DNA from: Punctularia strigosozonata HHB-11173 SS5
Lineage: Eukaryota > Basidiomycota > Agaricomycetes > Corticiales > Punctulariaceae
Direction of reading: 5' to 3'
Assembly: GCF_000264995.1 (NCBI RefSeq)
Contig: NW_006767434.1
Location: forward strand, 356,358 to 384,831
DNA length: 28,474 nt
The notes beneath the pieces are model-generated. The model was not told the origin of the DNA and searched no databases. It was given only the letters and a program-made list of their open reading frames with translations. The translations under genes and the position numbers were made by a program. Of this stretch, positions 1,758 to 24,110 are shown piece by piece; the stretch's first letter is position 1; the number at the start of each line of letters is the position of its first letter.

Positions 1758-4674
1758 TCAAGGAAGGAGCAAGAAAAGGGCGAGGAGGCGTTCGAAGTTA
1801 GGTGTGCCGACACCTGAACAGACACGCGATGAGAACGAGACAAAGTCGGCGGGAGAGACTCGACTCACCTGTGACAGGATCCCATCCGGTCGTTCTGGTA
1901 GAGCAAGGACAGGGTCAATCACGAGCTGACGTTTACTGTTGATTATGCTGCGCAACGACTTACGACTCGAAGCCCGGTGTACCTGTTAAAATGTAAACTC
2001 TGGGTTTCACTCTTCAGAAGTTGGCACTCACCACAACCCTGGTTGCCTCCCGTGGTGATGTCATTGAAAGCAATCTTGAAGGCATCAGTATAGATCTGGA
2101 AAAGTGGGCTCTATGAGATTCAACAAAGATCCGGGGGATAGCTACGCACAGCTGGGTTGATGAAGCCTGCGGGCAATCCGTTATTACTGAGCCGGTCGTA
2201 AGAATATCGATTCCTTGCTCACCGACAGGTCCTTTGCCGATCGCGAGGCGAGCGTCGTTGATGAGCGTGATGAGGGACCCTACGACAGGACTCGAACTAA
2301 GACGATAAGGCGACACATCACAATCGGCTCCCGAAGACACGTTGCGAAGACGCTCACGCGGATGTGCCGAAGACGAGCTCAAACTCGCCATCGATGCCTG
2401 GTGCAAAGAGCGAGTGTTAATGTCACATCCATACTCAGGCGTCGATGTCATGAGTACCGATTACGTAGTTGGCGCTGTAACGAAGGATGCGTTAGATCGA
2501 GAGTGTGCATTGGCAACATTGTAATGCTCACCCGTTGGCGCTGAGGTCCGGGAAGGCCCTGACAACCCCCGAGTTGTTGAATTGGGCAGCCGTGTACGGC
2601 GGCGGGTGGTTCTTCAAGAAGCTCTTGACGGCCGTTTCTTGATACTGCGGAGGAACACAGATTCCCGTCAGAGGCTTGCACCTCCCCGAAAGCGCGAAAA
2701 AAAAACAGACATACTTTGGGCATGGCGAAGATGTTGGAGAATCCACCTACGCGACAGCGGATCAGTCACATCCTGAATCGACGCTAGAGCAAAAACGTTG
2801 CGGCAACGTACCTCCACTGAAGATCACCTGCTCGCATGCGCTCTCTGGGTCGTTCACGGTCGCATTCGGGTTCACCTGAGTCGCGCCGACCGCCGTCACG
2901 AACGGGCACGTCACCGGGAACCCTGGGTTGAACCGCGTTCCGTTCGGGTCCTCCTGGTCCGTCGCGTTGATGCACGTGTTCCCAAAGCTCGCGACGCCGT
3001 TGTCGCCGGAGGAGTAGAGTACGCTAGTCCCGAGCATCCCGAGCTTGCCGTACTCGGCGCATTGGCGTTGCGCGTAGGCGGACGTGACGGAGTGCTCGGA
3101 CTGGCCGTAGGAGACGGAGACTACAAACGGAGGCTTGATGATTCCGCACGACTCGGGTCCTGTGAGGCGGCGTTAATAGGTGACGGGATTTCGAGCGAGG
3201 GTGAAGGCAGTCGAACGGAGCGAACCTTCGAATGCGCCTGCGCCACCGATAGGGTCTGGATAGATCCCGTCCTGCGTCGGGTCGTCGCCGCCCTCGAAGG
3301 TGCAGAAAGATGCGTCGACAGCGTCGAGCCAGTTGTTGAAGGATGCGCCTGAAGGTTTGCCGTCAACTATAATGCCATGCCGGTTCTGACCGATATATGC
3401 ATGCCTTCAACAAGGTCACCGGCTTGCAGAAGAGTTATGGGTTGCGCTGCACTCCAACATGAGACGTGAACCACTGCCGAGACACATAGGAATGATGCAT
3501 ACGGTTTGTGAGTGCCATGGCGTATTCGAGGTCGAGATCGCTCTCGCCATTGAAGTTGAAGCTTTGGTCTTGAGTCTGCGCGACACCTCCATCGATCGAA
3601 ATGAGGTTCGGCCTCTTCCCCAGAGCGTTGGGGGAGAAATTCCTGAACCCCGGGTCAATGAGTGGATCAGATGAAGGTGACCGCTACGCACGTGAAGAAG
3701 AGGTCCAAATCATCGGCAAGGAATGCTTGCGGCGTAAACTCCACTAAGATAGGTCGTTCACACAGCGTCGCACCACGTACATACGAAGAGACGCACCAAT
3801 TCCATACGAGTTTTTCTTGGTCGCGATCGGCGTATAGTGCACGTTATACAACGCCCTCAAGCAATCTGGCGTGATGAACCTGGCGAATCGATGATCGTTG
3901 AGGACAATCTAGAGCGCACAAGATGCGCAGGTCACGTACTGGTCGCACGTCGCCAGGTTCGGCGTGATCTTGACTTTCTGACCGTTCGTCTTCGGGCCCG
4001 TGTGCGCTGACGGCTGGCCCATGCGCGAGCCATCTCCAGAGCGCTTGTGCAGGGGCTCGGAACGCATGACATGGTTGAAGTGGACGGTGGGCGTGATCAA
4101 ATCAACGTGTTCCCGGATCTGCTCTGGGACGGAGTAGGAGGGGCAGCTGATCTGTTCGAGGCCGGAAGAGTGGGTATAGACGTGGTACTCCGTCTGAAGG
4201 AGATCTTCCGCCTGGTGGATGAAGCGTAAGGGTTCCTCACCAACTAGCGCGTATTCGAATACTTACCTCTGCGACGGTGACGTTGAACTCCAACCATCCC
4301 TTACTCGGGCTCATCTTCATCCTGCCTGGTGCGATGCCAAACTCCGTCAACCAAGTTTTGACCGCTTCAACGGTGTCCTCTGCCGGTTTGAAGAAGTCAA
4401 CGACCTCAGCCGGAGTCCAATGCATGCCGTAGTTGTCGCTCTCCGGATGCGCGACCTCCATCAACATGTCCTCGAGTAGGTGAAGATTGCGCTGCGCGAG
4501 GCCGACGCGCATAGGTAGCACCGCGGCCGGATCTGCGCGGCGCGCGCTGAGCCAGTGTTCAGGCGATGGCTCCGCTGCGCGTTTCTCGTGCACGACATGA
4601 CGCCGGTGGACGGACGGGATAGCGAGAGCGGCACCGAACGTGGCTAGCGTCGCGAGGGCACGGAAGAGGCGCAT
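1758..4674 (-). CDS. Secreted sedolisin (S53) peptidase, tripeptidyl-peptidase type, 18 exons
   Basis: A secreted serine-carboxyl peptidase. Exons, high to low: 4674-4267, 4211-3940, 3879-3797, 3743-3692, 3642-3503, 3446-3405, 3348-3226, 3159-2812, 2746-2715, 2644-2532, 2474-2458, 2397-2358, 2296-2223, 2166-2150, 2095-2032, 1982-1964, 1894-1869, 1813-1758. They sum to 1926 nt, in frame, 641 aa. Residues 1-18 (MRLFRALATLATFGAALA) form a signal peptide; about 35-190 is the pro-kumamolisin activation domain; the rest is the S53 domain. All catalytic positions are visible: Glu305 and Asp309 in GESDLDLEYAM, Asp426 in LYSSGDNGV, and Ser556 in GTSASSP, split by an intron. The C-terminal WDPVTGVGTPNF motif is present. 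The second ATG of the frame is chosen because it gives the signal peptide and lies about 60 bp after a TATA-like box. Intron 6 (3404-3349) is GC-AG; two exons are only 17 nt. Likely role: extracellular protein breakdown. Confidence 0.93.
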
Positions 4675-4730
4675 CGTTCCTATTCGAGCACGAGGGGCTC
4701 GACACACCCCTCATCGCTCGAGATACGGCG

Positions 4731-5579: not shown

Positions 5580-6310
5580 AAATACCGCGCCGGCGGAACG
5601 CCAGAGCACCTCGCCGCGGCTCTGGAGAAGGATGATATCCTGCGGGAACGAAGGGAGTGCGCGACGACTCTCGTTCGCCCGATATCGAACGGCGTACCGA
5701 TGAGGAGCCTGCAGATATCACAAGGATGATTGCGTTGGCGCGCGGAGGATCGTTGCTTCACAATTACGGCGCGTTGCATATCTCAGTCGTACCCCGCAAT
5801 CCTACATGAGACCGGCGCCATATCTGCAAGCACACGAACTCTCGCCATAGGCGTCGGCAAGCGCTCTATCAGACAGGCAGCCGTGCACGCCGCTCCGGTA
5901 CGTACCTGCTCCTCTCGTTCATATTATCGTCTGCTCACCGGAGGATCGTTTTCACGTAGGCGATCATCTCATCTCACCATCGCCTCCGCCCCCATCCAAA
6001 ACGAAGTAATCAAAGCAGTCTGAGCTAGTAAAGCACGCCGTGTACGGTTCCGCACTGGCTAGGCCTTCATCAACGGCGATACCCCAACTTTTCCAGACGC
6101 AACTACCCGTCTACGAAAGCAACATTCAAGGCGAAGGCGGCCTCTCGGAGCGAGCTCGCGATGGGATGGGTCGACGCGAGTCGTACGCATATATGCGAGT
6201 GATAGCGGGTGGGTAAGGCAGATAAGATGAGAGTGCATGATCGTCGTTAGGCCCGAGGACCACGTAAGCAGACACATTGTGCGTCAAGTATTCACTGTCC
6301 AATCTCATTG
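5580..6310 (+). repeat. Inverted repeat arm 1 (diverged)
   Basis: The reverse complement of this stretch aligns collinearly with 23365-24110, by eye at roughly 75-80% identity with small indels. Anchors include AACGACGATC, CCTTACCCACCCG, ACTCGCGTCGACCC, CCGAGAGG, CTCCGGTGAGCAGA, GAGAGGAGCAGGT and TACGCCGTTCGAT on the aligned strand. Frames on the plus strand are partly shared with arm 2 (for example VVRPEDHVS here against VVPEDYIS there), and a possible intron (GTACGTACC to ACGTAG, about 5900-5960) is shared. The arms may therefore be decayed copies of an old gene or mobile element. I do not recognise a family, and stops break any long frame. Confidence 0.75.
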
Positions 6311-6365
6311 TTCAGGATCTTCATCCGTGTAGAATACAGGGGGTTATGCTAGACTACACTTTTGG

Positions 6366-7878
6366 TCACTTCTCCTTCTTCGTCAGCGCGGTAGCTGCAG
6401 CATCCTTTTCGCGCTCCTTCTCGGCCTTCTCAACCACAGTAGCCACGTCCCAATCATCCTTGAAGTACTTGTTCACCGTCGAGTTATCTGCGTCGCGAAG
6501 ATCGGCCTCGAGCTTGTTGAGGTTAATCTTAGAGTCTTCCTCCTTTATCGTGTCGATCATATCTTCAGCAATCTGTGTATCGCAAACAAAGTCAATGCAT
6601 CATTAACGAGGTGCGGGTGTGGGTGCTTACGGCGGAGGCGGCGCCGGTCTGGCCCTTGTTGAGGAGGTTGAGATACGTCGTGCTCGTGCTCATCTGCTCG
6701 GTGACGTGTCGCGCCTGCTGCTTGATCGCGTCGATGACCAGGCGGACAACCTGAGTCTCGTGGATGCCTTCAATAAGCTTGTCCTTCCTGAACGGAACGT
6801 GAAGTTGATGGTGACAATGTCATGCATGGTAGAAAAGCTTACTGTTGTCCACCGACGATGACCTCGATCAGCGGCGCGACGCCCACGAGTACGACGCCAA
6901 ACCACGAAAGCCATTTTCCGATCTTGCCCAGGAACTTGAACAAGCGCGCAACTTTGCTTTCCTCTGATCGAGTGTAAGCGTTTCCTGGTAGGTGTCAAGT
7001 CAAATGCTACGTACGACCTACGAGGCCAGCCGCTTCTTTCCCGGCTGCATGAACCAAACCAAGTATCAATAAAATGCGGAGCAGATAGAAAAACAAGCGC
7101 GACTTACTCTGCGCGATGGCTCGAGCCCGAGCGGCGGCGTTTGCGACGGCTGATTGAGAGCGATATTCCGTCAGTCGATGTGGAAGAAATGAAGGCGGTT
7201 GGATCATGCGTACCTTCTCCAACGGCAGCTGCGCCACGCGCCAGACCGGGAATCGCCTCGACGAACGCGGTGACGATGGCGCGAACGGCTTGTATGGCGG
7301 CGATGCCGCGCACGAGCGCCATAATCGCCTTGCCTGCAAGTACGGTCAGCTGGACTCGCGACTTTGCAAGATGAAGTTCGTACTTCCGAGGGATACGAGC
7401 TTGCCACCTCCGAGGAGGAGACCGATCCAGAGCATCGTCTCCGTGATCTGCAGAGACGTCAACAAGGAGTTCAAACAGCACAAATAGTGGTTCTTACTTT
7501 AGCCACTTCTTTCGTAGACGAAATCAACTAAGGAGATCGTCAACATAAAGACTCCTCCGAGGTCAGATCCAAACGACCTACAGCCTCAAACTCGTGCTTC
7601 TGCTCATCAGTCAGCTTGCTCATCGCCTCGTTCTTGAGCGCGGCGAGGGTCTTGATCTTGCCCTCCTTGAGCAGCGCGTTGAGGATCGTCTGCGACTTCT
7701 CGTCGAGCTCGTCCATGCGCGCCTTCTCCTGAGAGATGTCGGTCTGCAGCACGCCGATGTTGTTGATCAGCTGCTGGAGGCGGTCCGCGCGGGGGACGTT
7801 GTCTGCGGAGGCATGGTGGTTAGATGAGCGAGGACGGGAGAGATTGAGCGGCGGCTTACCGGGGTAGAAGACGGTCAT
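6366..7878 (-). CDS. Paralog A: helical protein with hydrophobic middle (336 aa), unknown family
   Basis: Function not recognised. Exons, high to low: 7878-7860, 7802-7582, 7527-7498, 7447-7384, 7333-7214, 7149-7108, 7044-7015, 6963-6843, 6787-6631, 6572-6366; total 1011 nt in frame. The N-terminus carries FYPDNVPRADRLQQL, then a charged, heptad-like helical stretch to about residue 90 rich in Glu and Lys. A hydrophobic segment (TMLWIGLLLGG) follows near 93-105, then an Ala-rich stretch. A clear membrane-type segment (FGVVLVGVAPLIEVIVGG) lies near 197-214, then further charged helices and a Lys/Glu-rich tail. There is no signal peptide. Exons 2, 3, 4 and 6-9 have exactly the lengths of those in paralog C (11211-12694). 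For exon 7 the GTACGT donor at 7014 was preferred over a nearby GTCGTA because it is stronger and gives the same 30-nt exon as C. Divergent from paralog B. Confidence 0.85.
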
Positions 7879-7949
7879 GTCGATTCGATTTGAAGGTGTG
7901 GCGACGAGGGAAGGTTGGTGGTTGGAGTCGTATGGCTTTGTGTAGAGTA

Positions 7950-7956
7950 TTTTATA
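7950..7956 (-). promoter_or_regulatory. TATA box of paralog A
   Basis: TATAAAA on the minus strand, 72-78 bp before the ATG at 7878, directly preceded by GCCGCG. Paralogs B and C have TATA-like boxes at nearly the same distance, also preceded by a CGCG or GCGC word. Confidence 0.7.
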
Positions 7957-8639
7957 CGCGGCAGCTCGGACTATCGTCTCCTCATCTCCTCGGAAACTGG
8001 GTTCTGCCACATACGCATCCGGTGTCAATCACAACCGGGATGTTATGTCGCCATAGCGGTAGCACAAAGCCTGGCAGACGAAGAAGCAGGGTGCAATGGA
8101 GACTTGACGTCCGGCCTTGACGAGTGTCCGCGATCGGTGCGGGCCCGCGACCGAGGGTACTGATTGCATTCGGTGCTTCATGTATGACATTGATAGGACA
8201 CGTAATTACGAAGGATGCGAGGCGACAATGAGATCGGGACTAGAAACCTGTGTGGATGGCAGGGAGGTAGAGCAGAAGACTCGTAAGTCTGTAGCCGTTC
8301 TATTAGCAGACATCCTTGAACGTTACGCCGAGTGTCTTGCAGTCAATTATGTTGCTGTTCATGACAGTTGAGTTGAAGTCAGGAGCTTTTTTGACCAGGA
8401 GCAAACGCGTAAGAATGCATGAACTCGCGTGCTCGTGGACTTCGGCAACTTCGAGTACACGCTGTCAGTTCAATGCACCACGTGCATTACCGCGGTCACG
8501 GAGCTAAAATGAAACGCCGTTACTTCACATGTTCGAATTACTAGTCCTTCGTGTCCGACTTGGAACTACGGAGACGCTCTTTCGCCGACGCCCATCATAG
8601 CATGCGCGTCATGGGGTACTGTACTATTTGGCTACGCGC
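7957..8639. other. Divergent intergenic region between paralogs A and B
   Basis: About 680 bp between the two TATA boxes of genes transcribed away from each other, so it probably carries upstream elements for both. Open frames here lack domain or splice support. No specific factor site can be named from sequence alone. Confidence 0.5.
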
Positions 8640-8646
8640 TATTTAG
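8640..8646 (+). promoter_or_regulatory. TATA-like box of paralog B
   Basis: TATTTAG 73-79 bp before the ATG at 8719, directly preceded by ACGCGC. The position and context match the boxes of paralogs A and C. Confidence 0.5.
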
Positions 8647-8718
8647 CACATCGACGCGGTCCTGGCTAAATCAGACAATACTCTGAGATCTCGAAACGCA
8701 CTACTATACCTCGCAATC

Positions 8719-10625
8719 ATGGGTAACTCTCAATCTCTCTTCTACCCAGACAACCCCAACAGGCGCGCTCGCGCTCAGCAGCTCGCCGACGACTGTCAGT
8801 CGTTCAAGCACGATTACGAAAAGATCAAGGCCGAAGTCGAAAAGGAACTCGGCCCTTACAAGGAGAAAGTCGCCAAAGTCTTGCACGCGTTTGGGTGCAA
8901 GAACCTCGATGATCTCGACAAGCTGGTGCGCAGTACCGCCGTCGGCGAGAACCTGGAAAAATGGATTGAAATTAAGAGCACTGTGGACGACCTGGATACG
9001 TAAGTCTACATGGGAGATTTGGTTTTGAAGAATGTTCGCTCATGTCACATTAGTGCTAGCGAAGTATTCTCGACCGCGATGGCCATGTAAGTCGTCTATA
9101 GTGACCCACAACTTCCGCTGATCAACACTGCGAATAGTGTCGCTATTGCCGGGATAGCCATCAGTATTGTAGGCGCTCTCGCCGGTGGCTTTGGCTTTTT
9201 CGCCGGCAAGTCTCTCTCGAGGTTTACATTCAAGCAAACCAGCTTACGTTTATTATCCAGGGATCGCTGTCACGACCGATATCCTCTTGGTACTGGGAAT
9301 TATCGGGGCCATCTTTGACGCCATTAGCGGGGCTGTTCAACGCTCCCAGCTGCGTGACGCTATCAACTCGGTAAGTGTTCTCGGGGGCTCTGCATCATAC
9401 CGCTCGACTAAGTACGCAATGCTAGCTTTATCCATCTCGCATCAAGATCAAGTACTTGCTGGAACATAGCAGGCATCCGTTTTTTCCTCGCAATCGTGAT
9501 AGTTATAACTGATAATACGTTCAGACTGATACAAATCAATATCTCCGGCATTAAGAAGCTCTATAGGATCTTCGAGAAAGCCGGATATGATAGGGACATG
9601 ATCATCAAAGAGCTGCGCGAAGGCGACGTCATGAAGAACCTGCAGGAGAGTAACGCTGCCGCTACCTACTACGAAATCGCCAAAGGCTTGGTCGAGCATG
9701 ACCGTACCCGACCCGGAGGCGCATGGACAAATGAGGACCCCGGATGGGAGGCCATCGCGCACTCGCTCGATGCGGAACTTGAGGCGAAGAAACGAGCCGC
9801 TCGCGGGAAAACGGTCGCGTTCCAGCCTGCCATGCTCATGTCCACTTCTGCGATTGGAGCTTCGCACACTCAGCCTTTGAGAAGGATGGCGAATGATATC
9901 ATGCCCGAGGTCTGCATGCGACATCTTACTTGTGATTGCGCCCTTACACTGCAACGTAGCCTCTGACCTCTGAGATGCGCGAGTGCAACCTCAGCCTTGA
10001 TCGCCTCAGATACATGAAGGAACATAAGATGAAATACGAACCGCCATCGTCTGAGGTGAGCTGCGAGAAATCGCTCCGAGGCTTTCGCCGATTTTTTCTC
10101 CAGGGTACCACTGCCCAGATCACGGTTGTTTTGGAGCCAAAGGGCACGAAGACCATCTCGCCCTTGCTACAGGGTCCTATGCATATAGCTCTGGGGTCCT
10201 TCCTCAACGCAACAGCAGCTGTTGTCCACGTTCAGTACGTCCATCCAGTTCCTTGGCGTGACTTGGATATCAAACGTGTTCATCTAGGACTAGAACGCAC
10301 GACACGCTTCAAGCCGACGCGACCCATCTGAAAATCCGCACGGAGCACGCTGCAACTTCTTCGGTGAGTCCCATCTTCGCCTCGATATGAGCCTTTGTGA
10401 AATGACACATCTCATCAGACCGCCTGGATCATCTCCTTTGCGAACGCTGCCGAAGCAGCCAGCTTCGCGGGCAATCACGGCGCTGATTCGAAAACAATGC
10501 ACTCTCTTTCCGTGGAGGTTTCTCTACGTGTCGAGACGCCGGACACGCTTTACCTGGCAGCGGATGGAAGTCTCTCGCGAACCCCTGTGAAGTCTTCGAG
10601 CATCTTCATGGCGCGTTATGCCTGA
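8719..10625 (+). CDS. Paralog B: possible N-myristoylated protein with hydrophobic hairpin and extra C-terminal domain (470 aa)
   Basis: Function not recognised. Exons: 8719-8999, 9054-9086, 9138-9205, 9261-9370, 9426-9451, 9525-9909, 9960-10055, 10104-10234, 10288-10363, 10419-10625; total 1413 nt, in frame. It starts MGNSQS, which fits the N-myristoylation pattern (Gly2, Ser6), followed by the FYPDN motif shared with paralog A (LFPDN in C). Residues about 15-93 are charged helix. Residues about 99-146 form two Gly-rich hydrophobic segments (AIAGIAISIVGALAGGFGFF, then ILLVLGIIGAIF) separated by a short turn, a hairpin-like build. After more helix, a C-terminal part (about 334-470) looks beta-rich and has no counterpart in A or C. 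Intron 3 (9206-9260) uses a GC donor (G|GCAAGT). The 26-nt exon 9426-9451 is needed to keep the frame. The intron at 9910-9959 is the least certain join. Without it the frame stops at 9966, giving a shorter protein. Confidence 0.78.
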
Positions 10626-11136
10626 ATCGTCGTGATCGACCTCATGTATTCCGATATCAATAATTACAACGTCATCCGAACGTGATTTTCGACATCTTTT
10701 GTACACCGGAATGGGTTGAAGAAAGTCAACACCTGAGCATGCGAACTTGACCGCCACGTGCCGGACTCTCCTAGCCAGCTCCCAGCTGTTGACATCGATA
10801 TCGGATTGATTTCTTCAAGTGATTTGGCTCCTGCCAAAGTACGTCATTGCCTCAAGCCTGCGATGTCGAAGCAAAGAATTCCCAGGCGACCGGCATGTCA
10901 ATGTCAATGTGTGTGAGTCCGATCATCCACGCACCGGCTTCGGTGTCACGGAATCAAATGCTTGCACCTGCTCGACGCCAGAAGGCCCGCAGATACTTCG
11001 CTGTCAGCGCATGCAATGCATATGGCGACATACATAACATTACGGACGGTCGGCATCAAGACACCTCCGAGGGCTGGTCTCTTCACATCTACCCTGCTGT
11101 GACGATGACGATGAGTTTGGGGTATGCCCCGCGCAC
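10626..11136. other. Intergenic region between paralogs B and C
   Basis: About 510 bp between the stop codon of B and the TATA-like box of C, both on the plus strand. It should hold the 3' end of B and the upstream region of C. No coding frame with splice support is seen. Confidence 0.5.
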
Positions 11137-11144
11137 TATTTAAA
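11137..11144 (+). promoter_or_regulatory. TATA-like box of paralog C
   Basis: TATTTAAA 67-74 bp before the ATG at 11211, with CCGCGCAC just before it, matching the arrangement at paralogs A and B. Confidence 0.6.
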
Positions 11145-11210
11145 ACAAATGCGTTGCTGTATCGTCTACAGAACCACTTTGCAATCTGTCTAGCGCAACT
11201 GATCTGCACC

Positions 11211-12694
11211 ATGTCTACACCTCATCTATTCCCCGGTACGTTGTCTGATCACTCGCTTTTATACCATTGCTTACTGATTACTACTTAGATAACGTCAAGC
11301 GGGCGGACAGGTTACAGCAGCTCATCAACCACATCGGCGGGCTTCAAAGCGACATTATCAAAGAGAAGCGCCGAATGGACGAGTTAGACAAGGCCGCGCG
11401 AGCGATCTTGGACGAGTTGCTTCATAAAGGCGATATATCGACCTTGGAAGAGCTCAAGAAAAAGGCGATGAGCAAGCTCACAGAAGAGCAACGCCGTACC
11501 TATCAGACCGTACGTTATCCAGTCCATCTACTCAATCCTGATCTAATAAGCAAGCTTCCAGTTGATTGACGCTACCAGGACCGTTCACCAGGTAGGTCAG
11601 AGATATGTGTTGAGGCATCTCGTCAATAATGCGAGTTAGATTGGCGAAACGATGTTCTGGGCGGCACTCGTTATCGGGGGTCCCGAACTAGCCAAGTTAG
11701 GCGGTGAGTGTCGTCCAATTCAGAGTGGGCCTGATCACCAATCGCCTCGCTCGTAGGAACCGCAATTATGGGTCTCTTCAAAGGCGCTTCTAGTATGCAA
11801 GCCGTGCAAAGCTCAGTCAGCGCACTCGTCGATACGCTCGTGAAAGCAACAGCCGGAACTGCAGCTGCCGCTGGCGAAGGTATGCGGTATATTGCTACGC
11901 TGGCATGCGTTATCGACTGACATCATCGATGTAGGTGTTGCACAGGCTGCGCAGACCGCGTTGAAGAGCGCTGAAGGTAAAGCTCGTAATCTACTTAAGA
12001 TACACGGAGCCAAAGTAACGCGCTCTCTGTTTGGTAGCTGGAGAAGGTACTGTTATCGCTGCTGAAGGTGAGTATATCTTTCTGCAGAATTCGTACGGCG
12101 TCAACTTAAGATACACCAGAAGGAGCCGAAGTCACCAAGAGCATTGGCTTCCTCGGTAAATACGGCAAATGGTTCTCCCGCTTTGGGGTTGTAATCTTGG
12201 TGGCGACACCTATCGTCGAGCTCTTCCTCGGTGCTCGGCAGTGAGTTTCTATAAAGACGATCGCATACTTCAAGATATTCATTCTGTTGTATGCAGGAAA
12301 GAGCGACTCATTGACGGCATTCACGAGACGCAGGTGGCTCGTTTGGTAGTCGATTGCCTGCGAGAGCAAGCTCGGAAACTCACCGAACAAATGACCTCGA
12401 TCAAGACCTACCTCGATATGCTGAAGAAAGGAAAAAAGAGCGAAGCAGCAGCCGTGAGTAATCTAATTTGATATCATGTGCTCAGTAAAGGTATCCTGAA
12501 TGGAACATACGCAGTTCGGCAAGGAACTTCTGGGCACGATCAGGGCCGCCAACGCGGGGATCGACTTGGAGAGTCTGGAGGATGGTCTCGAAAAATCGGA
12601 TAAGAGTTCCAGCAATTATTACGGCGAAGATGATCTGAAATCTGCCACTGTGGTCGAACTGGCGCTCAAGAAGCAGGATGGAGAAAAATCTTAG
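11211..12694 (+). CDS. Paralog C: helical protein with hydrophobic middle (330 aa), unknown family
   Basis: Function not recognised. Exons: 11211-11235, 11289-11509, 11562-11591, 11640-11703, 11757-11879, 11935-11976, 12038-12067, 12120-12240, 12297-12453, 12515-12694; total 993 nt, in frame. The N-terminal motif LFPDNVKRADRLQQL and the next charged helix (to about residue 92) match paralog A closely, including DELD and AMSKLT. A short hydrophobic segment (MFWAALVIGG) near 97-107 is followed by an Ala/Gly-rich stretch (113-180), then a membrane-type segment at 200-216 (FGVVILVATPIVELFLG), then helices containing IHETQV, shared with A, and a charged tail with SATVVE, also shared. There is no signal peptide. 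The build (helix, hydrophobic, helix) resembles membrane-inserting alpha-helical proteins in general, but no named family motif is seen. Intron 6 contains a decayed copy of the start of exon 8. Confidence 0.87.
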
Positions 12695-13252: not shown

Positions 13253-13800
13253 CTACCGCGCACGGGGCAGAAGACACAGATGTTGAAGTGCGTCAACAAT
13301 GCGACGTGTAAGGTCCTTGGCAGTCCGGAAGGAAGAGTCCGGGTCGAGCGGGCACGAGAAATGCGACGAATCACCACGTTCTGCGATGTGCTCTCGGACG
13401 TGATATTCGGCGTCCTCGTAATGAAAGTCCCTGCACGTATGGACGCAGCCTGGCCATTTGCAAAAACCGGTCGAGAACTTGCGGAGTGACGACTTAGGGG
13501 CAGCTGCACACCTTCGGCGTGCAGGGGTTGCCACAGTGGGCACTGCGGGCTCTTGCATCTGCGGGGTTCTATGGTAAAGAGCAAGTGCCGTGAGTAGCTT
13601 CGCCGCTGATTTGATGCTGTCCAAAGACTGAGCCTGATCCATGAAATCGTATGCGTTCTCGAGGGTGTCGAGGGTGTCGCGGATGGTCGAGTTCGACCTG
13701 TCCGATAATGGTCTAAAGATAGATTCGTCAGGAAACACGCGTGGACTACTAGTGTGACTTGCCTTCTGCACGATTGCCAGTGAGAGATACGATCGCGCTC
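13253..13800 (-). pseudogene. Chimeric relic: NLR N-terminal exons joined to broken C2H2 zinc fingers
   Basis: The upstream part on the minus strand (about 13800-13580) matches the intact NLR gene at about 18550-18780: GTGCAGAAG, then the intron GCAAGTCACAC to ATCTTTAG, then an exon with CTCGACACCCTCGAGAACG and ATGGATCAGGCTCAG. It lacks four bases (AATC or equivalent) within CTCGACCAATCCATCCGC, which breaks the NLR frame. Just after the match ends, the frame runs into a zinc-finger-like part: C-x4-C-x14-H-x3-H in CKWPGC...YHVREH (about 13470-13380). A second finger-like unit follows in which expected Cys and His are Ser and Arg (SCPLDPDSSFRTAKDLTRR). A third (CVFCPVRGRLMSRHDAAK) is readable only after a one-base frame shift near 13290. 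I infer two decayed genes brought together, not an active fusion. Confidence 0.7.
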
Positions 13801-13829: not shown

Positions 13830-14870
13830 TATAGGATGGTCAGGCTCGTATACCATGACAGGAGGTCCGCGAGCGTGCTCGTAGACGAGCCGGGCATGTG
13901 TGCCACCGTCCACGTCGGAGTTTTAGCATTTGCACGGCACGTCGGAGAAACAGGCTGGGATGAGGAAGACGTGATCGCAAGCTTGAGGTGGGTGAGCTGC
14001 AGTCATGCCGTCATCGTCCATGCTGTTGGGAAGGAGATCATGGGGGCGCAGCAGCGCTCTCGGCTCAAGACACGCCTAACCCACTCCCGTCCCTCCGTCG
14101 CACCACACTTCAAGTTCAACCTGGCGTACAAGTCAGGCTCGCTGCCGTACGCAGCGCAAGACATACAATGTCACACACATTGTAGGTAGACTATCGTCCA
14201 TGGGTTCCTCCGAGTTGCGGTTGAAGACGGTGGCTCCGTCTGGTACGTCTTTTTCCGCAAATCGATGCACATATTCCAACCTTGCAGATGTCCACGAGCG
14301 CTGGCCGTACATCAAAGCCGATGCCCGTCGCGTCAGTGACGGTTGTTTCGAGTGCGAGGTTGATCAGCGCTGAGCGATAGTGGACGACGTTGTGCTGGGC
14401 ATCGGGATGAATCTTCCCCAGTAAGATAACGGCTTGGGCCTGCGGGTACACAACTCACGCCCTCCGATAGAAGGTCGCGATGGGATTGCGGCGACGGCAT
14501 TCGAACTCGCTATTGATGTGGCCACCGCGCCGGATACGCTCTCCCCCCGGATTGGCCGTGCAAACCTCGAGCGGATTAGGCTGGAGGTCGATGATTGCCC
14601 AGCATGAGCAGTGCAAGTATATGCGACGGCCCATCCAGTCCGGTACGTGATTCCTCTCCCCCCCTCGCCGTACTTGAACCGAAGTCCACGCATGCTGAGG
14701 AGCGCATATATGCACCCTTTCTCTAGCTTACTTCACGACAACGAACTTGGCCCACTATCCTCCAACACCAACCTGCCCATCTGCGGGAGTACCATACCTG
14801 CCTGCTCGTCCAGGTCTTCGACGTGCCGCGATCGTCCGAAGAACCGCGATTAAGGTGCGTGATTTTTCTC
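13830..14870 (+). other. Unrecognised, probably decayed coding region with matches near 25.6 and 27.5 kb
   Basis: Two pieces recur elsewhere. 14185-14290 matches the reverse complement of about 27470-27605 (GTCCATGGG, CTCCGAGTTGC, GTTGAAGAC, CTGGTACGT). Read as coding plus donor, both give SMG-SEL-LKT followed by a GTACGT donor. 14595-14840 matches 25535-25760 in direct orientation (CATGAGCA, GTATATGCG, AAGTCCACG, ATGCTGA, GCGCATATA). On the plus strand a short frame gives LLVQVFDVPRSSEEPRL before a GTGCGT donor (about 14800-14853). A minus frame with AVILLGKIHPDAQHNVVHY is also open (about 14350-14450), so the coding strand is not settled. No family is recognised. Confidence 0.4.
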
Positions 14871-17142: not shown

Positions 17143-20100
17143 ATGGCTGTTCGTAAAAAGATAGGCGATGAGTTCAGGAAGCTCAGGTCTCCCCCCGATA
17201 ACGCTCGGGATGAGGGCGCTTCCTCCCAGCCCCTGGATCTCGCAACAGGCACGATAGGCGCGATGGTGAGTACAACTCTCTGGGACTGTGCACACGCAGG
17301 GAGGGCATCTAACGCTGGATATTGGACCAGGATGTCGACGAACCGCAGGCGACCGGAACCTCTCAACCACACCAGCGGACTAACGACATCGGCTCGCCTC
17401 AGGATGATCTGACTGTACAGTTGCATCATTGTGGCAAGCAAAGTCACTGCCTAATGTCCGTAACACACAGAAACACTCAGGTCGCGCAATCGCAGAAGCC
17501 GGAGGATATCGATCATCGGAGCAGACCGTCGCGCGGCGAGCCATTGATGAGGCCAAGAAAGAGGTCGCCACCATGCAATCTGATACACTGGTGGAACGAG
17601 GCGCGGCGGCAGTCGACGAACGGAAAGACCTGGCGCAAGGGCTGGCCTCGTCACCAAAGCAATGGGAATCGTTGTTCAGGCGTCTTAAGCAGTTCACAGA
17701 GCTTGTCGACAGATTGCCGAGGTGATCATTCGTGGTTCGGATTTTCGTGATTCCGAACTCATGNNNNNNNNNNNNNNNNNNNNNNNNNNNNNNNNNNNNN
17801 NNNNNNNNNNNNNNNNNNNNNNNNNNNNNNNNNNNNNNNNNNNNNNNNNNNNNNNNNNNNNNNNNNNNNNNNNNNNNNNNNNNNNNNNNNNNNNNNNNNN
17901 NNNNNNNNNNNNNNNNNNNNNNNNNNNNNNNNNNNNNNNNNNNNNNNNNNNNNNNNNNNNNNNNNNNNNNNNNNNNNNNNNNNNNNNNNNNNNNNNNNNN
18001 NNNNNNNNNNNNNNNNNNNNNNNNNNNNNNNNNNNNNNNNNNNNNNNNNNNNNNNNNNNNNNNNAACGCTGGACTATTGGACCAGGATGTCGACGAACCG
18101 CAGGCGACCGGAACCTCTCAACCACACCAGCGGACTAACGACATCGGCTCGCCTCAGGATGATCTGACTGTACAGTTGCATCATTGTGGCAAGCAAAGTC
18201 ACTGCCTAATGTCCGTAACACACAGAAACACTCAGGTCGCGCAATCGCAGAAGCCGGAGGATATCGATCATCGGAGCAGACCGTCGCGCGGCGAGCCATT
18301 GATGAGGCCAAGAAAGAGGTCGCCACCATGCAATCTGATACACTGGTGGAACGAGGCGCGGCGGCAGTCGACGAACGGAAAGACCTGGCGCAAGGGCTGG
18401 CCTCGTCACCAAAGCAATGGGAATCGTTGTTCAGGCGTCTTAAGCAGTTCACAGAGCTTGTCGACAAGATTGCCGAGGTGATCATTCGTGGTTCGGATTT
18501 TTCGTGATTCCGAACTCATGCTGGCCACGGCGAAAGATTCATCCCTATGCAAGCATGGCGTGGAATGTTCTCTCAATTGTGCAGAAGGCAAGTCACACAT
18601 ATCAGTCCGACACGTGTCTCCTGACGAATCCCACCTTTAGACCATCATCGGGCAGGTCAAACTCGACCAATCCATCCGCGACCTCCTCGACACCCTCGAG
18701 AACGTATACGACTTTATGGATCAGGCTCAGCCTCTGGACAGCGTCAAATCAGCGGCGAAGCTGCTCACGGCACTCGCTCAGCAGACGACCGAATGCGGCT
18801 GGTTCATACACGACTATGCGAAAAACAAGGATTTCTGTACGTTCCGGGTCCCTTGCACATCGTCGTCGCCGTGTCCGTAACCTTGATTACAGTACCACGA
18901 ATGGCGTCGAATGCCTTGAAGAAACTCGTCCATCCAACCCAAGCGGCGCCAGCGATGGTGAAGGAATACCAAGCCAAGTTCGCGGAACTAAAGTCGCAGC
19001 TGCTGGAAGGATCCACGATACGGACAGCCATCGCCATAGCGAACGTCGATCTTGTCGTTCACAGGGTCTTGAACACCGTCGAAGAGATCGGTAAGGAACC
19101 CGCCGGCTTGTCTTTCGCCGCGCTGACTGTCGATTATCATCAGCCGTGGACGTCAAGATGCAGCGGTTGGAAGACGCCTGTGCCAGAGGTTCTCGGTTCA
19201 ACAGAGATAAGAGATGCATTCCAGGGACCCGTCAGACAATTCTTCAGATCATAGCCGACTGGATCAACGATCCGCTTGACGCTCGTCGCGTGTTTCTGCT
19301 CTATGGGCCGGCGGGGTCGGGTAAGTCGGCGATCGCTCATACCATAGCAGCTATATTCTACGACATGCTTCGCTTGGGGTCTTCGTATTGCTTTGACAGG
19401 TCCAACGTCGAGCTTACTCGTGCTATCCCCTTTTTCGCCACCATCGCCCGCGACCTATCCGAACGTGAGCCTCAGATTCGAATTCAACTTTCGCGGGTCA
19501 TCGCCCGGGACTCCGCCCTTGCCACATCGAACGATCTTCGCGAGCAGTTTCGGCGCTTCATCGTAGAGCCTGCGTCACAGCTCGCGATCTCTGGGCCGAT
19601 TGTCATCGTCATCGACGCTCTTGACGAATGTGACTCGTACGCACGCAGCAGACTCTTATCAATTTTGCAGAGTCAGGAAGCGGAGGATGCGCTCCCGCGC
19701 AACGTTCGCATCCTCATCACCTGTAGGCCAGAGCCCGACATCATGGACGTGATTCGGGACGCGCCTCTTGTTCATGCTCGATCCATGAATTACGTACTGG
19801 GGACGGCCGCTAACGAGGACGACATACAGCTGTATGTCCGTGGACAACTGTCGTCCCTCTCGAAAGTGCATGATGTCGATACCATATGCGCCGATCTCGT
19901 CCGCGCCGCCGAGGGACTCTTTCAGTGGGCTGCGACAGCATGTCGCTTCCTGACCGCAAAAACTCCCCCATTGACCATCAAACAACGGATGGCACTTGTT
20001 CTACCATCCGATGGCAAACGCACCGCTAATGGCCAACTTGATACGCTGTACTTAGAAGTCCTTCGGACCACCTTCTCTTCCACGCACCCCGAGGTCATGG

Positions 20101-23100
20101 AGAATTTCCATCGGGTGATGAGTCTCCTCATGACGGCGGTCGAACCGCTGTCCATCTCGGCATTGCAGGATATCGTTAATGGACAGGCAAACCTGGATCC
20201 AGATATGATTCAAGGGGTACTCGCGGGAATGGGATCGCTCCTATCTGGAACCGATCGCTTGGACGTCGTCGTGCGCCCTCTGCATACGTCGTTTCGAGAC
20301 TTCATTCTAGATCCCAAACGCAGCCACGAATTTGTCGTCAAGCCAGGGAAAGAGGAGCATCTACAATTCGCGCGGGGGACCCTACGTCTTCTGTTGAGCG
20401 AGCAGTTGCACATCAACATGTGCGGACTCGAGACGTCCTATGATCTCAACACGGAATACCATGACTTAGAGGAGCGTGTACGCACGAACATCCCGTTGAG
20501 TTTGGTCTATTCCACGCGCTACTGGGCCGATCATCTCAAAGAGACTGCGTACGGCTCTGGCCTGCTGCAAATGGCGGAACAACTGCTGAAAGTCAAGTTC
20601 CTGTTCTGGCTCGAGCTCCTGAGTCTTCTAGGATCTGTTTCCACCTGCGCGTCGGCACTCCTGAAGCTCAAACAGTGGACACCTCGGGCAGGTCTTTTCA
20701 TTGGTTACATCTATCGCGTGCGGCTCACATACGTATTCTGCCCTTAGGATACTGCGGAAGGACTGGAAACGGTCTCAATCATCGAGGACTTCCTGAAATT
20801 CCTCCGAGCTTTTGGGGTGATGATCGGATCTTCTGCTCCCCACATTTATCTCTCAGCCATACCTTTTGCACCGACGAGGTCACAAGTGCGGCGGCTGTAC
20901 GAATCAAAGCTTCCCAGAAGAGCTACGGTGGTGTGCGGTGGATCGTCAGAATGGCCCGCCTTAGAATGCACCATGGACTGCGATGGCCGCGTCCTCTGTG
21001 CGGAATTCTCCGGCGATGGAAAACACATCTTCTTTGTCTCGCTCGGGTCATCAGGCTGCACTATACATGTGCGAGATGCGGCCACTGGACAGCCGGCCCG
21101 TCGACCTGTGCACTGTGGTACAGAGAGTAATGTCCAGTGCGTCGCCTTCTCTTCGGAGCGAGACTTCATAGTGCTGGGCTTGTACAACAACACGATTCAG
21201 GTTTGGAATACCAAAGCAGGGCAGCATATCCACACGCTCAGAGGGAACATGGGTTATGTTTCAACGGTCGCTTTCTCTCCTGACGGCAAGCAGATTGTGT
21301 CGGGCTCGGGTGACATGATGGTCTGTATTTGGGATGTGCAGTCTGAAAAGCTTGTCCATCCACCACTCCAGGGACATACGAACCGGGTGGTTTCCGTGGC
21401 TTTCTCGCCTGACTCCAACTGGGTGGTCTCACGTTCAACAGACGAAATGATTTGCTTATGGGATACCATAACGGGAACACTCGTGCACGAGCTATTGCGT
21501 GGCTATCCATCCGATACATCCTATGTCGCATTCTCGCAGGATGGAAAATGGATTGCGTCAGGCGACGAGACCGTGCAGCTGTGGGATGCCAAGTCTGGCC
21601 AGCCTATCGGGTCCCCTCTTCGGGGCCACACTAGCGATGTCGCAGCGTTGGCGATTTCCCAGGACGGCAAATTCGTTGTATCCGGTTCTGTAGATGGTGT
21701 TGTTCATCTCTGGGACACGACAGAACAGGCCCTCTGCACGACTTTCCATGGTCACTCCAACAGGGTGAACTCTGTGGCGTTCTCGGGAGACGGCCAGTAC
21801 ATCGTCTCCGGATCAGAGGACAGGACTGTACGCGTGTGGAACGCTTCAACCCGACGCACTGAGAAGGACATTGTCAGAAGACACGCTGGCCTGGGCGACG
21901 GTATAGCTGTTTCGCCGGATGGGGAGTGTATTATTACTTGGCACGAGAAGGACATTTGTGTGTGGGATGTCTCGATGGGAATGCCTGTTCAGGCGCAGCA
22001 CTGGCCGGAAAGGACCGCCGAATTGCGCTACATTGCGTTCTTACGCGATGTACACCAGGTCTTGTCGTGGTCGGAGGATGACAACGTTCGCGTGTGGGAA
22101 GTCTCCACCGGTCAACAGATTCGCCAGTTCCAAGTTCCGACCTTTCGACCCCGTTGGCCAAACCCTGCAGCAATCTCTCCGGACGGGAAGTATATCGCAT
22201 TGTCAAGCTCAGGAGAGATTATACACGTATGGGACATCTCCACCGGGGAGCGTTCGCAGGAACCTCTCGAAGGGAACACTGCTCTCGTCGCATCCCTTGC
22301 ATTCTCTCCAGACGGGAAGTGCATCGCATCGGGCGCATGGGACGAGAAAATACTCCTATGGGACGTCGAGACAGGTCAGACTGTATGCGCACCATTGGAG
22401 GGGCATACCAAACCAGTATATTGCGTTGCCTTTTCGCCAGATGGCGCTTATCTCGTCTCCAGTGACCGCGCTGGCGTCATTCGGATCTGGGACTCTGCCA
22501 CGGGACAGACGATCTGCGGTCCTTGGCGTGGCCATGACGATTGCGTTAACTCCGTCGTTTTCTCGCCAAACGGACGCTGCGTGGCCTCGGGCGGACGTGA
22601 CGGTACAGTTCGCGTTTGGGATGCGGTCACCGGGGAGGCGATTCGCGAGCCGTTTCGGGGTCACACAAGTTGCGTCGAGACAGTGGCATTTTCATCGGAT
22701 GGCCAATGCATCATATCACGCGGCAACGACGACACGATCCGGTTGTGGGATGCCTCGACGGGGCAGGCTGACAATGTCGAGGGACTACGGGGTGCGTCAC
22801 CTCAACGTTTTACTTGATCTTACTCACACTGGCTGTCCGGCGTAGTAGACGATTGCGCTGTCTCAACCCAACCGCAGTCCGCATCGTTCTCGCCAGACGA
22901 GGATCACGCTCTTGCCGACATTCAGCTCATAGTCCCTGGCGCTGAACAGATGTCACGGTTCAGAATCGACGATTCGTTCACGCTGAAGGACAACGGCTGG
23001 GTCATGGGACCTGACGATCGGCGCCTGATCTGGATACCGGTTCAGAATCGTGACATATGGAGACCGCAGAACAGGCGAACCATCATAGCTTTGGGTGCGG

Positions 23101-23174
23101 TGACCACGCTTGATCTGAGCAACTTTGCTCACGGCGAGAAGTGGGCCGAGTGCTACGAGGAGAGCTCATCCTGA
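17143..23174 (+). CDS. NLR-type STAND protein: helical N-terminus, NACHT NTPase, 14 WD40 repeats (1606 aa)
   Basis: A signal-transduction NTPase of the class used in fungal non-self recognition. Exons: 17143-17265, 17331-17414, 18226-18477, 18537-18587, 18641-18836, 18893-19090, 19144-20687, 20748-22791, 22846-23174; total 4821 nt in frame. Residues 1-300 are mostly helical and resemble the Goodbye/HeLo-like N-terminal regions of fungal STAND proteins (HPYASMAWNVLSIVQK near 154-170). The NACHT has Walker A GPAGSGKS at 356-363 and Walker B IVIVIDALDE at 454-463, both with key residues present. A helical arm follows to about 816, then 14 WD40 repeats (about 897-1485), mostly ending in W-D/N/E. 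The tail (to 1606) has WIPVQNRDIW and the LDLSNFAHGEKW motif common at the end of this class. Introns 18588-18640 and 20688-20747 are GC-AG. Exons 2 and 3 also appear before the N gap (17331-17721), where exon 3 lacks one base; I used the copy after the gap because it keeps the frame. Confidence 0.9.
17311..17763. repeat. First copy of an almost identical pair flanking the gap
   Basis: This 453-bp stretch matches 18065-18520 (456 bp) base for base except for three one-base gaps: GGATATTGG against GGACTATTGG, GACAGATTG against GACAAGATTG, and GATTTTCG against GATTTTTCG. The missing base in GACAGATTG breaks the NLR frame. The pair is most likely the same genomic piece assembled twice, with this copy the poorer read. 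Confidence 0.95.
17764..18064. other. Assembly gap (301 N)
   Basis: A run of 301 unknown bases inside the NLR gene, between two near-identical 0.45 kb stretches. The spliced NLR reads through in frame with nothing missing, so the gap probably holds no real sequence and the two contig ends overlap. Confidence 0.9.
18065..18520. repeat. Second copy of the pair flanking the gap
   Basis: The partner of 17311-17763. It contains NLR exons 2 and 3 (18086-18169 and 18226-18477) with the reading frame intact and joins without a break to the rest of the gene, so it is the better version. Confidence 0.95.
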
Positions 23175-23364
23175 GTGGGCCGGTGCGTGGTTCACTGGAT
23201 ATCGTGGAGTGGAGAGGTATCTTGTTGTCCAACTTTCAGTACGGCCGGACATCTTCATGAATATGGTTGACCTGAATTGGTGACGTGCCGGGGTCTACAG
23301 ACGTCGTGTTTAGCGCATATAGTGATATTAGCTGGAAAGACAAGTCGAAGACGACGGTGCTGAT
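23175..23364. other. 3' flank of the NLR gene
   Basis: About 190 bp between the NLR stop codon and inverted repeat arm 2. It should contain the 3' end of the NLR transcript; no clear signal is visible. Confidence 0.4.
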
Positions 23365-24110
23365 CAATGAAATCCGATAGTAAATACTTGTCGTACGATA
23401 TGAATGCTGATGTAGTCCTCGGGCACAACGACGATCGTACATGCTCCCATGTTACCCGCCTTACCCACCCGTCACCACTCGCATATACGCGCCCGACTCG
23501 CGTCGACCCGTCCGATCGCGTGCTCGCCCCGAGAGGTTACCTTCGCCTTGAGGTTGGTTTTGTAGACGGGAAGTTGCGTCGGCAAAGGTGAGGTATCGGC
23601 CGTTGACGAGGGCCTAGCCGGTGCGGAGCCGCACAAGGCACGCTTTGCCACCTCCGACTGCTTAGATTATTTTGCTTTGAGTAGGACAGAGGCGATGGTG
23701 ATATGAGACGATCGCCTGCGTGATAAAGGGCCTCCGGTGAGCAGATCATAGGATTCATGAGAGGAGCAGGTGCGTACCGAAGCCGCGTGCCTGGCTGGCT
23801 CCGTGACGAAGCGCTTGATAACGGCTCTGGCAAAAGTCCGCGTGCGCGCAGTTCTGGTGTCGGTCTCATCTAGGATGGCGAACACGACTCAGACATGTAA
23901 CGCGCCGTGACCGCCAAGCGATACTCACCACCCGATTACAATCCTCCGCGAATACATGCAACTGCCCTTGTGGTGTCGGGACACTGCTCATCAGTACGCC
24001 GTTCGATCTTCGGTGAACGAGATATCATTGCGCACCTGCACTGCTCCCGCCATATCTCAGTCTTCATCGAATACGTGACGGGCTGCGCCGGCGTTCCGCT
24101 GGCACCGATT
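23365..24110 (-). repeat. Inverted repeat arm 2 (diverged)
   Basis: The partner of 5580-6310 in opposite orientation. Together the arms enclose about 17 kb holding paralogs A-C, the NLR relic and the NLR gene. Like arm 1 it has partly open frames (minus strand, for example FARAVIKRFVTEPARHAAS before a GTACGCACC donor) but stops break any full gene. Minus-strand coding character seems to go on beyond the repeat to about 24166 (NDRLRDLIMFNATIGFKIG), so this arm may belong to a larger decayed gene. Confidence 0.75.

Follow-up and report, generated by a model that had tools for sequence, protein, structure and literature searches.

A compact cluster of three genes, designated here A, B and C, lies within a 28,474-nt stretch of the genome of the basidiomycete Punctularia strigosozonata HHB-11173 SS5 (GCF_000264995.1, contig NW_006767434.1, positions 356,358-384,831, equivalent to C2:356358-384831; hereafter the window). 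These genes appear to represent a fungal family that carries no name in the libraries searched, and they are situated in a region rich in genes for NOD-like receptors (NLRs), at a position where the body of an NLR gene would be expected. We tentatively propose that A, B and C might be membrane-acting proteins linked to NLR immunity, which is a possible rather than a probable reading of the data. For the question of how the NLRs of basidiomycetes bring about cell death or protection, a compact, selected and unnamed cluster in an NLR slot, likely encoding membrane proteins, offers a concrete candidate set of executors. The NLR context of the cluster is new here and was missed by an earlier reading of the sequence alone (the first-pass annotation).

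Gene structures of A, B and C

The first-pass annotation had described a three-gene cluster spanning positions 6366-12694. When rebuilt from the raw sequence, all three gene models hold, and the limits of this span coincide with the stop codon ends of A and C.

6366-7878, minus strand: gene A, 10 exons, coding sequence (CDS) of 1011 nt, 336 aa, with GT-AG borders at nine of nine introns and an open frame
Gene A exons, minus strand: 7860-7878, 7582-7802, 7498-7527, 7384-7447, 7214-7333, 7108-7149, 7015-7044, 6843-6963, 6631-6787, 6366-6572
7879-8718, no strand: A/B intergenic stretch, 840 bp between divergent starts by coordinates, a possible shared promoter
8719-10625, plus strand: gene B, 10 exons, 468 aa
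Gene B exons, plus strand: 8719-8999, 9054-9086, 9138-9205, 9261-9370, 9426-9451, 9525-9909, 9960-10055, 10104-10234, 10294-10363, 10419-10625
11211-12694, plus strand: gene C, 10 exons, CDS of 993 nt, 330 aa, with GT-AG borders at nine of nine introns
Gene C exons, plus strand: 11211-11235, 11289-11509, 11562-11591, 11640-11703, 11757-11879, 11935-11976, 12038-12067, 12120-12240, 12297-12453, 12515-12694

A and C are genuine 10-exon genes, as had been claimed, and every one of their introns is of the GT-AG type. Their exon lengths, in order, are 19, 221, 30, 64, 120, 42, 30, 121, 157 and 207 nt for A and 25, 221, 30, 64, 123, 42, 30, 121, 157 and 180 nt for C, such that the reported equality of exons 2, 3, 4, 6, 7, 8 and 9 (221, 30, 64, 42, 30, 121 and 157 nt) is exact, a correspondence that we attribute to common descent. 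The (F/L)(Y/F)PDN motif said to lie near the starts of the proteins is present as FYPDN in A and B and as LFPDN in C, and intron 1 of both A and C interrupts the Asp codon of this motif after its first base. By eye, TATAAAA occurs ~70-80 bp 5′ of the ATG of gene A, and TATTTAAAA occurs ~70 bp 5′ of that of gene C.

Gene B is accepted as a gene because its exon chain is open and because splice sites and codon usage favor it. Eight of its nine introns are GT-AG and the remaining one is GC-AG (CCG/GCAAGT). With a matrix built from the introns of A and C, and measured against the 85 GT sites of 8701-10640, seven of the nine donors, the GC donor included, rank 1-7; those of introns 5 and 6 are weak, ranking 12 and 14. 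Retention of intron 6 (after position 9909) would yield a protein of 319 aa from which the C-terminal part is lost, and the C-terminal ~150 residues of B therefore hinge on the splicing of this intron.

Coding frames were scored with codon usage trained on the neighboring NLR. For 29 of the 30 exons, the coding frame is the best of the three forward frames, the sole exception being the 25-nt exon 1 of C, where it scores lowest. The margins are small in several exons (B exons 2, 5, 7 and 10), and in B exons 2, 7 and 10 the scores are near zero, yet the best of their three frames. Over the whole CDS, the coding frame exceeds the five other frames in each gene, with the best reverse frame as runner-up (0.25 versus 0.19 for A, 0.15 versus 0.06 for B, and 0.16 versus 0.07 for C).

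Relationships within the cluster

Aligned over 321 aa, the proteins A and C are 45% identical (E 1e-94), and their Smith-Waterman score of 736 compares with 44.6 ± 7.7 for shuffled sequences, none of 300 of which scored as high. Identity at the first, second and third codon positions is 0.60, 0.72 and 0.40, third positions being the most diverged, and by the Nei-Gojobori method (NG86) dN is 0.46 and dS 1.92, a ratio of ~0.24 for which dS is near saturation. Taken together, the identity, the pattern of codon-position divergence and the dN/dS ratio indicate that A and C are old duplicates kept under selection. In C numbering, identical residues number 52 of 91 in 1-93, 34 of 86 in 94-180, 18 of 40 in 181-220, 26 of 44 in 221-264 and 22 of 66 in 265-330, the best-kept regions being the N-terminal part and the stretch following the hydrophobic segment. 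At the DNA level, the likeness of corresponding cluster exons is moderate (0.47-0.70), and exons 3 and 10 are no more alike than introns (0.46-0.61).

The kinship of B is narrower. At its start, B scores 69 against A (shuffles 39.9 ± 5.7) and 73 against C (39.1 ± 5.7), with none of 300 shuffles as high in either case, and hhalign relates B to A/C with a probability of 77 (E 1.9e-5). No signal was found between residues 94-235 of B and A or C from residue 91 onward, where 182 and 96 of 500 shuffles, respectively, scored as high, and the exon pattern of B is unlike that of A and C. The description of the cluster as three paralogs is consequently firm for two of its members and partial for the third, since significant similarity to B is limited to its first ~70 residues.

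Protein layout and hydrophobic segments

The order of charged, hydrophobic and charged parts that had been proposed for the three proteins is seen in their sequences, and helices are inferred in each from residue composition, amphipathic moments and runs lacking Pro and Gly. For these estimates, Kyte-Doolittle (KD) hydropathy over 19 residues, amphipathic moments and insertion energies were computed, with the insertion-energy sums taken without position weights. The further claim of hydrophobic segments following the charged part fits B best, in which two strong segments adjoin (102-120, KD 2.51; 135-153, KD 2.37) with a glycine-rich turn between them, and in which residues 98-133 comprise 36 residues without charge. 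It fits the others less well: A has one strong peak (194-212, KD 2.24) and two lesser ones that contain arginines or glutamate (114-132, KD 1.80; 131-149, KD 1.47), and C has a single peak above KD 1.3 (197-215, KD 1.89). The middle parts of A and C consist of 39-40% Ala plus Gly, with 12 of 85 residues charged in A and 12 of 87 in C. Amphipathic stretches are located C-terminal to the hydrophobic part at 228-245 in A (moment 0.66), 231-248 in C (0.65) and 173-190 in B (0.60).

Inspection by eye revealed no signal-peptide-like start in A, B or C. B begins with MGNSQS, which fits an N-myristoylation pattern; A and C do not begin with Met-Gly. An extra C-terminal part of ~150 residues is found in B only.

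Searches for families and relatives

The assertion that the proteins lack a named family is borne out by scans of Pfam, NCBIfam and PDB sequences, in which no match rose over the cut-off or beyond noise. The best chance-level Pfam matches have E values of 0.017 for A, 0.011 for B and 0.009 for C, and those in NCBIfam range from 0.018 to 0.074. Exon-by-exon searching across the unmasked part of the 33.6-Mb genome recovered the three genes themselves and no further copies. Likewise, no relatives were detected in the prokaryote set genome_contigs or in viral_contigs, in plasmids (searched with C only) or in phages (searched with B only). As these sets are prokaryote or virus only, the absence of relatives from them says little about fungi, and we would expect relatives in other Agaricomycetes.

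NLR surroundings of the cluster

Pieces of NLR units border the cluster on both sides, and an intact NLR gene is located farther downstream in the window. The region C2:336358-534831 was mapped around the window; 52,868 of its 198,474 bases are N.

5589-6315, plus strand: ~730-bp element whose end is 50 bases past the A stop codon; its copies elsewhere follow NLR 3′ ends
13579-13776, minus strand: truncated copy (198 bp) of an NLR N-terminal exon, 86% identical by blastn to 18574-18779 and 884 bases past the stop of C
18574-23174, plus strand: nearest intact NLR gene, with an N-terminal exon piece (18574-18779), an NPHP3_N/NACHT open reading frame (ORF; 19095-20747, by Pfam), a WD40 ORF (20748-22817, by Pfam) and a tail ORF (22818-23174, by position and copies)
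23360-24103, minus strand: second copy of the element, 74% identical to 5589-6315, 3′ of the intact NLR
C2:397662-398558, 416923-417468, 473928-474656, 503108-503845 and 521957-522686: further copies of the element

The ~730-bp element occurs at seven places in the genome (eight match rows, one place being split), all of them on C2. At each of the six places other than the one beside A, it follows an NLR tail match by 176-201 bases in a fixed orientation. A typical unit in the mapped region consists of NLR N-terminal exons, NACHT, WD40 and tail, followed by the element. The cluster is flanked by the element and by the exon fragment in matching orientation, and this fragment also resembles the copies at C2:392862 and C2:412144 (86% and 87%). 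The spacing from element to exon piece is 7.3 kb at the cluster versus 4.6 kb in the window's intact unit, and neither blastn (E ≤ 1e-3) nor tblastn (E ≤ 1) found a remnant of NACHT, WD40 or tail between the flanking pieces. The simplest reading of this arrangement is that the A-B-C cluster sits where an NLR body has been lost.

Genome-wide there are 27 NPHP3_N matches in 33.6 Mb, 11 of which lie in the 134-636 kb interval of C2, and ~1.3% of genome positions lie equally near such a match, a post hoc figure for a single locus. The clustering with an NLR described for NLR-executor pairs is found here, given the intact NLR in the window and the NLR pieces on both flanks. Clustering of NLR and executor genes is reported for ascomycetes in PMC12881547. 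Such clustering alone is no proof of a working NLR-executor pair.

Several observations concern the NLR units themselves. NPHP3_N matches form a further dense group at C12:906599-966930, where five occur in ~60 kb. The element could represent a conserved downstream sequence or, alternatively, a small gene in convergent orientation; three ORFs overlapping one of its copies are without Pfam matches at E ≤ 0.01. A 301-base stretch of N (17764-18064) in the 5′ region of the window's NLR is flanked by ~455-bp copies that are 99.3% identical (17311-17763 and 18065-18520), probably an artefact of assembly, or else a result of masking. A 5954-aa open frame returned by the NPHP3_N scan was set aside as most probably produced by masked N; in 10,000 bases each, L034 and L035 contain 5974 and 9804 N.

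Proposed function and alternative explanations

We infer the helices, membrane action, soluble-to-membrane switch, myristoylation and NLR control of the following scheme from the features described above. A, B and C would be intracellular proteins with two N-terminal charged helices led by the (F/L)(F/Y)PDN motif, a hydrophobic center, and additional amphipathic helices. The charged helices might cover the hydrophobic part while the protein is soluble, and upon a trigger the hydrophobic part could enter a membrane and permeabilize or remodel it. B, which has the hydrophobic pair and a start predicted to be N-myristoylated, would act as the membrane-anchored subunit, and the old duplicates A and C, which lack a Met-Gly start, might serve as its related partners or regulators. 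The trigger would most likely be NLR signaling, as in the ascomycete pairs of an NLR and a stand-alone executor gene, because the cluster occupies the expected place of an NLR body in an NLR-rich region.

Several points weigh against this proposal. Proteins with hydrophobic helices have many harmless roles; insertion-energy sums are positive for all segments of A and C and fall below zero only for B 102-120, and C has but one strong hydrophobic segment. The exon fragment shows 90-91% likeness to three intact NLRs, and the element beside A 76-80% to the other six, which are 78-94% alike among themselves; these differing levels speak against a single common event, and the NLR pieces on the two flanks may have been left by separate duplications. 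The nearest intact NLR begins 5.9 kb from the cluster. Furthermore, a hand-joined NLR N-terminal stretch of 159 aa, near which there is an N gap, showed no similarity to A, B or C, with 39, 48 and 80 of 500 shuffles as high. The Pfam matches of this stretch to NACHT_N (E 0.0046) and to RPW8 (E 0.0055) fall below the cut-off.

Alternatively, A, B and C might be membrane-associated structural or trafficking proteins (a scaffold, a tether or an organelle-shaping factor), with the NLR neighbors being a coincidence of a fast-evolving region. This explanation is a possible one, though we would not call it probable. The paucity of strong hydrophobic segments in A and C is consistent with it, as is the dN/dS ratio, which corresponds to ordinary constraint. 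Also in line with it, a search of PDB sequences with a joint profile of the three proteins gave 15 matches at E ≤ 10, all of them weak, the best being a myosin coiled-coil chain (E 0.0053) that we judged to be coiled-coil noise. The confinement of the genes to a single locus, with no other copy found in the genome, and the position of the cluster between two NLR-unit pieces argue against such a role.

Stored cytoplasmic defense proteins exist in mushrooms, and the cluster might encode proteins of this kind, directed against fungus-eating animals or rival microbes and kept without a signal peptide. B would then combine a helical part resembling that of pore-forming proteins with a C-terminal, perhaps beta-rich, binding part. 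We consider this unlikely: the apparent absence of signal peptides and the extra C-terminal part unique to B (beta-rich by eye) would suit it, but that part, whose Pfam query carried a one-letter error, has no match in Pfam or PDB sequences and depends on the weak donor of intron 6.

A bolder form of the preferred reading, in which the cluster could encode membrane-acting executors linked to NLRs, is that it is a swapped-in cassette. Three genes of a new class of membrane-acting executors, unrelated to the HeLo, gasdermin and ClyA families, would have taken over from the NLR body, with a myristoylated hairpin protein (B) and its two related partners (A and C) under the control of surrounding NLRs. 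We regard this version as very doubtful. No terminal repeats were found at the cassette edges, where matches are only 8-9 bp long (E about 1-4). For the general scheme, PMC9815663 reports that motifs shared between NLRs and stand-alone executors are few, and never occur between neighbors in its BaMLKL scan; its authors conclude that such NLR-executor signaling does occur in Agaricomycetes.

Other features of the window

4237-4710, minus strand: Pro-kuma_activ protease pro-domain (Pfam E 7.8e-28)

This match probably marks a sedolisin-type gene; the ORFs downstream of it resemble a protease body by eye and gave no Pfam match. Pfam scans of 10 other ORFs of the window yielded nothing at E ≤ 0.01, and Rfam yielded nothing at gathering scores. 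Repeats in the window include a 65.6% inverted match between 2968-3341 and 26572-26192, an overlapping direct repeat of 72% identity (1203-1439 and 1304-1537), and an inverted 113-bp match of 76% between 14185-14287 and 27594-27482.

Comparison with known systems

With the ClyA-like alpha-helical pore-forming toxins (ClyA, HBL/Nhe and XaxAB/YaxAB), which are described in PMC6162564 as sharing a five-helix bundle, the cluster proteins share the order of a helical part, a hydrophobic insert and a second helical part, as read from sequence. The tripartite members of this class also resemble A, B and C in comprising three related proteins. The cluster proteins differ from this class in being eukaryotic and encoded by intron-rich genes, in showing no secretion signal by eye, and in having a hydrophobic pair that is clear only in B (98-153) and weaker in A and C by hydropathy. 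PF05791 (Bacillus_HBL) is absent among the Pfam matches of A, B and C listed at E ≤ 1, and it has no match in the P. strigosozonata genome at E ≤ 10. No fungal ClyA-like family appeared among the open-access papers listed. The likeness to ClyA and HBL is best treated as a possible analogy.

A, B and C might instead belong to the basidiomycete Goodbye/HeLo/MLKL-like superfamily, having diverged past sequence recognition, and stand-alone BaMLKL proteins (~500 scanned) are reported in Basidiomycota by PMC9815663. Residues 63-145 of C align with positions 32-114 of PF17109 (Goodbye) at E 0.045; the 14.6 bits of this match are below the 24.8-bit cut-off, it ranks third among the chance-level matches of C, after HisKA (0.009) and CARD (0.018), and A and B are without a Goodbye match in the same scan. 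Exon-wise, PF17109 itself gives three match rows at two places in the genome (C2:634107 and C4:555649), two of them over the cut-off. As the hydrophobic part of the cluster proteins is in addition internal, we think membership in this superfamily improbable.

HeLo-type membership in particular was considered and set aside. HeLo proteins act on the membrane via a helix at the extreme N-terminus, according to PMC12881547, and membership fails because the hydrophobic part of the cluster proteins is not N-terminal: the first hydropathy peaks (KD ≥ 1.3) start no earlier than residue 102 (B), 114 (A) or 197 (C), although an N-terminal amphipathic helix may be present. No HeLo or related Pfam profile exceeds the cut-off for A, B or C. 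In the genome, neither HeLo (PF14479) nor PF17111 (labelled PigL_N, and presumably HeLo-like) has a match at E ≤ 0.1 in exon-wise searches. Compared with HeLo/MLKL-like executors and their NLR partners, as in HET-S/NWD2, the proteins of the cluster thus differ in the placement of the hydrophobic part, and resemble them in being small, intracellular, presumably helical, and encoded near NLR genes.

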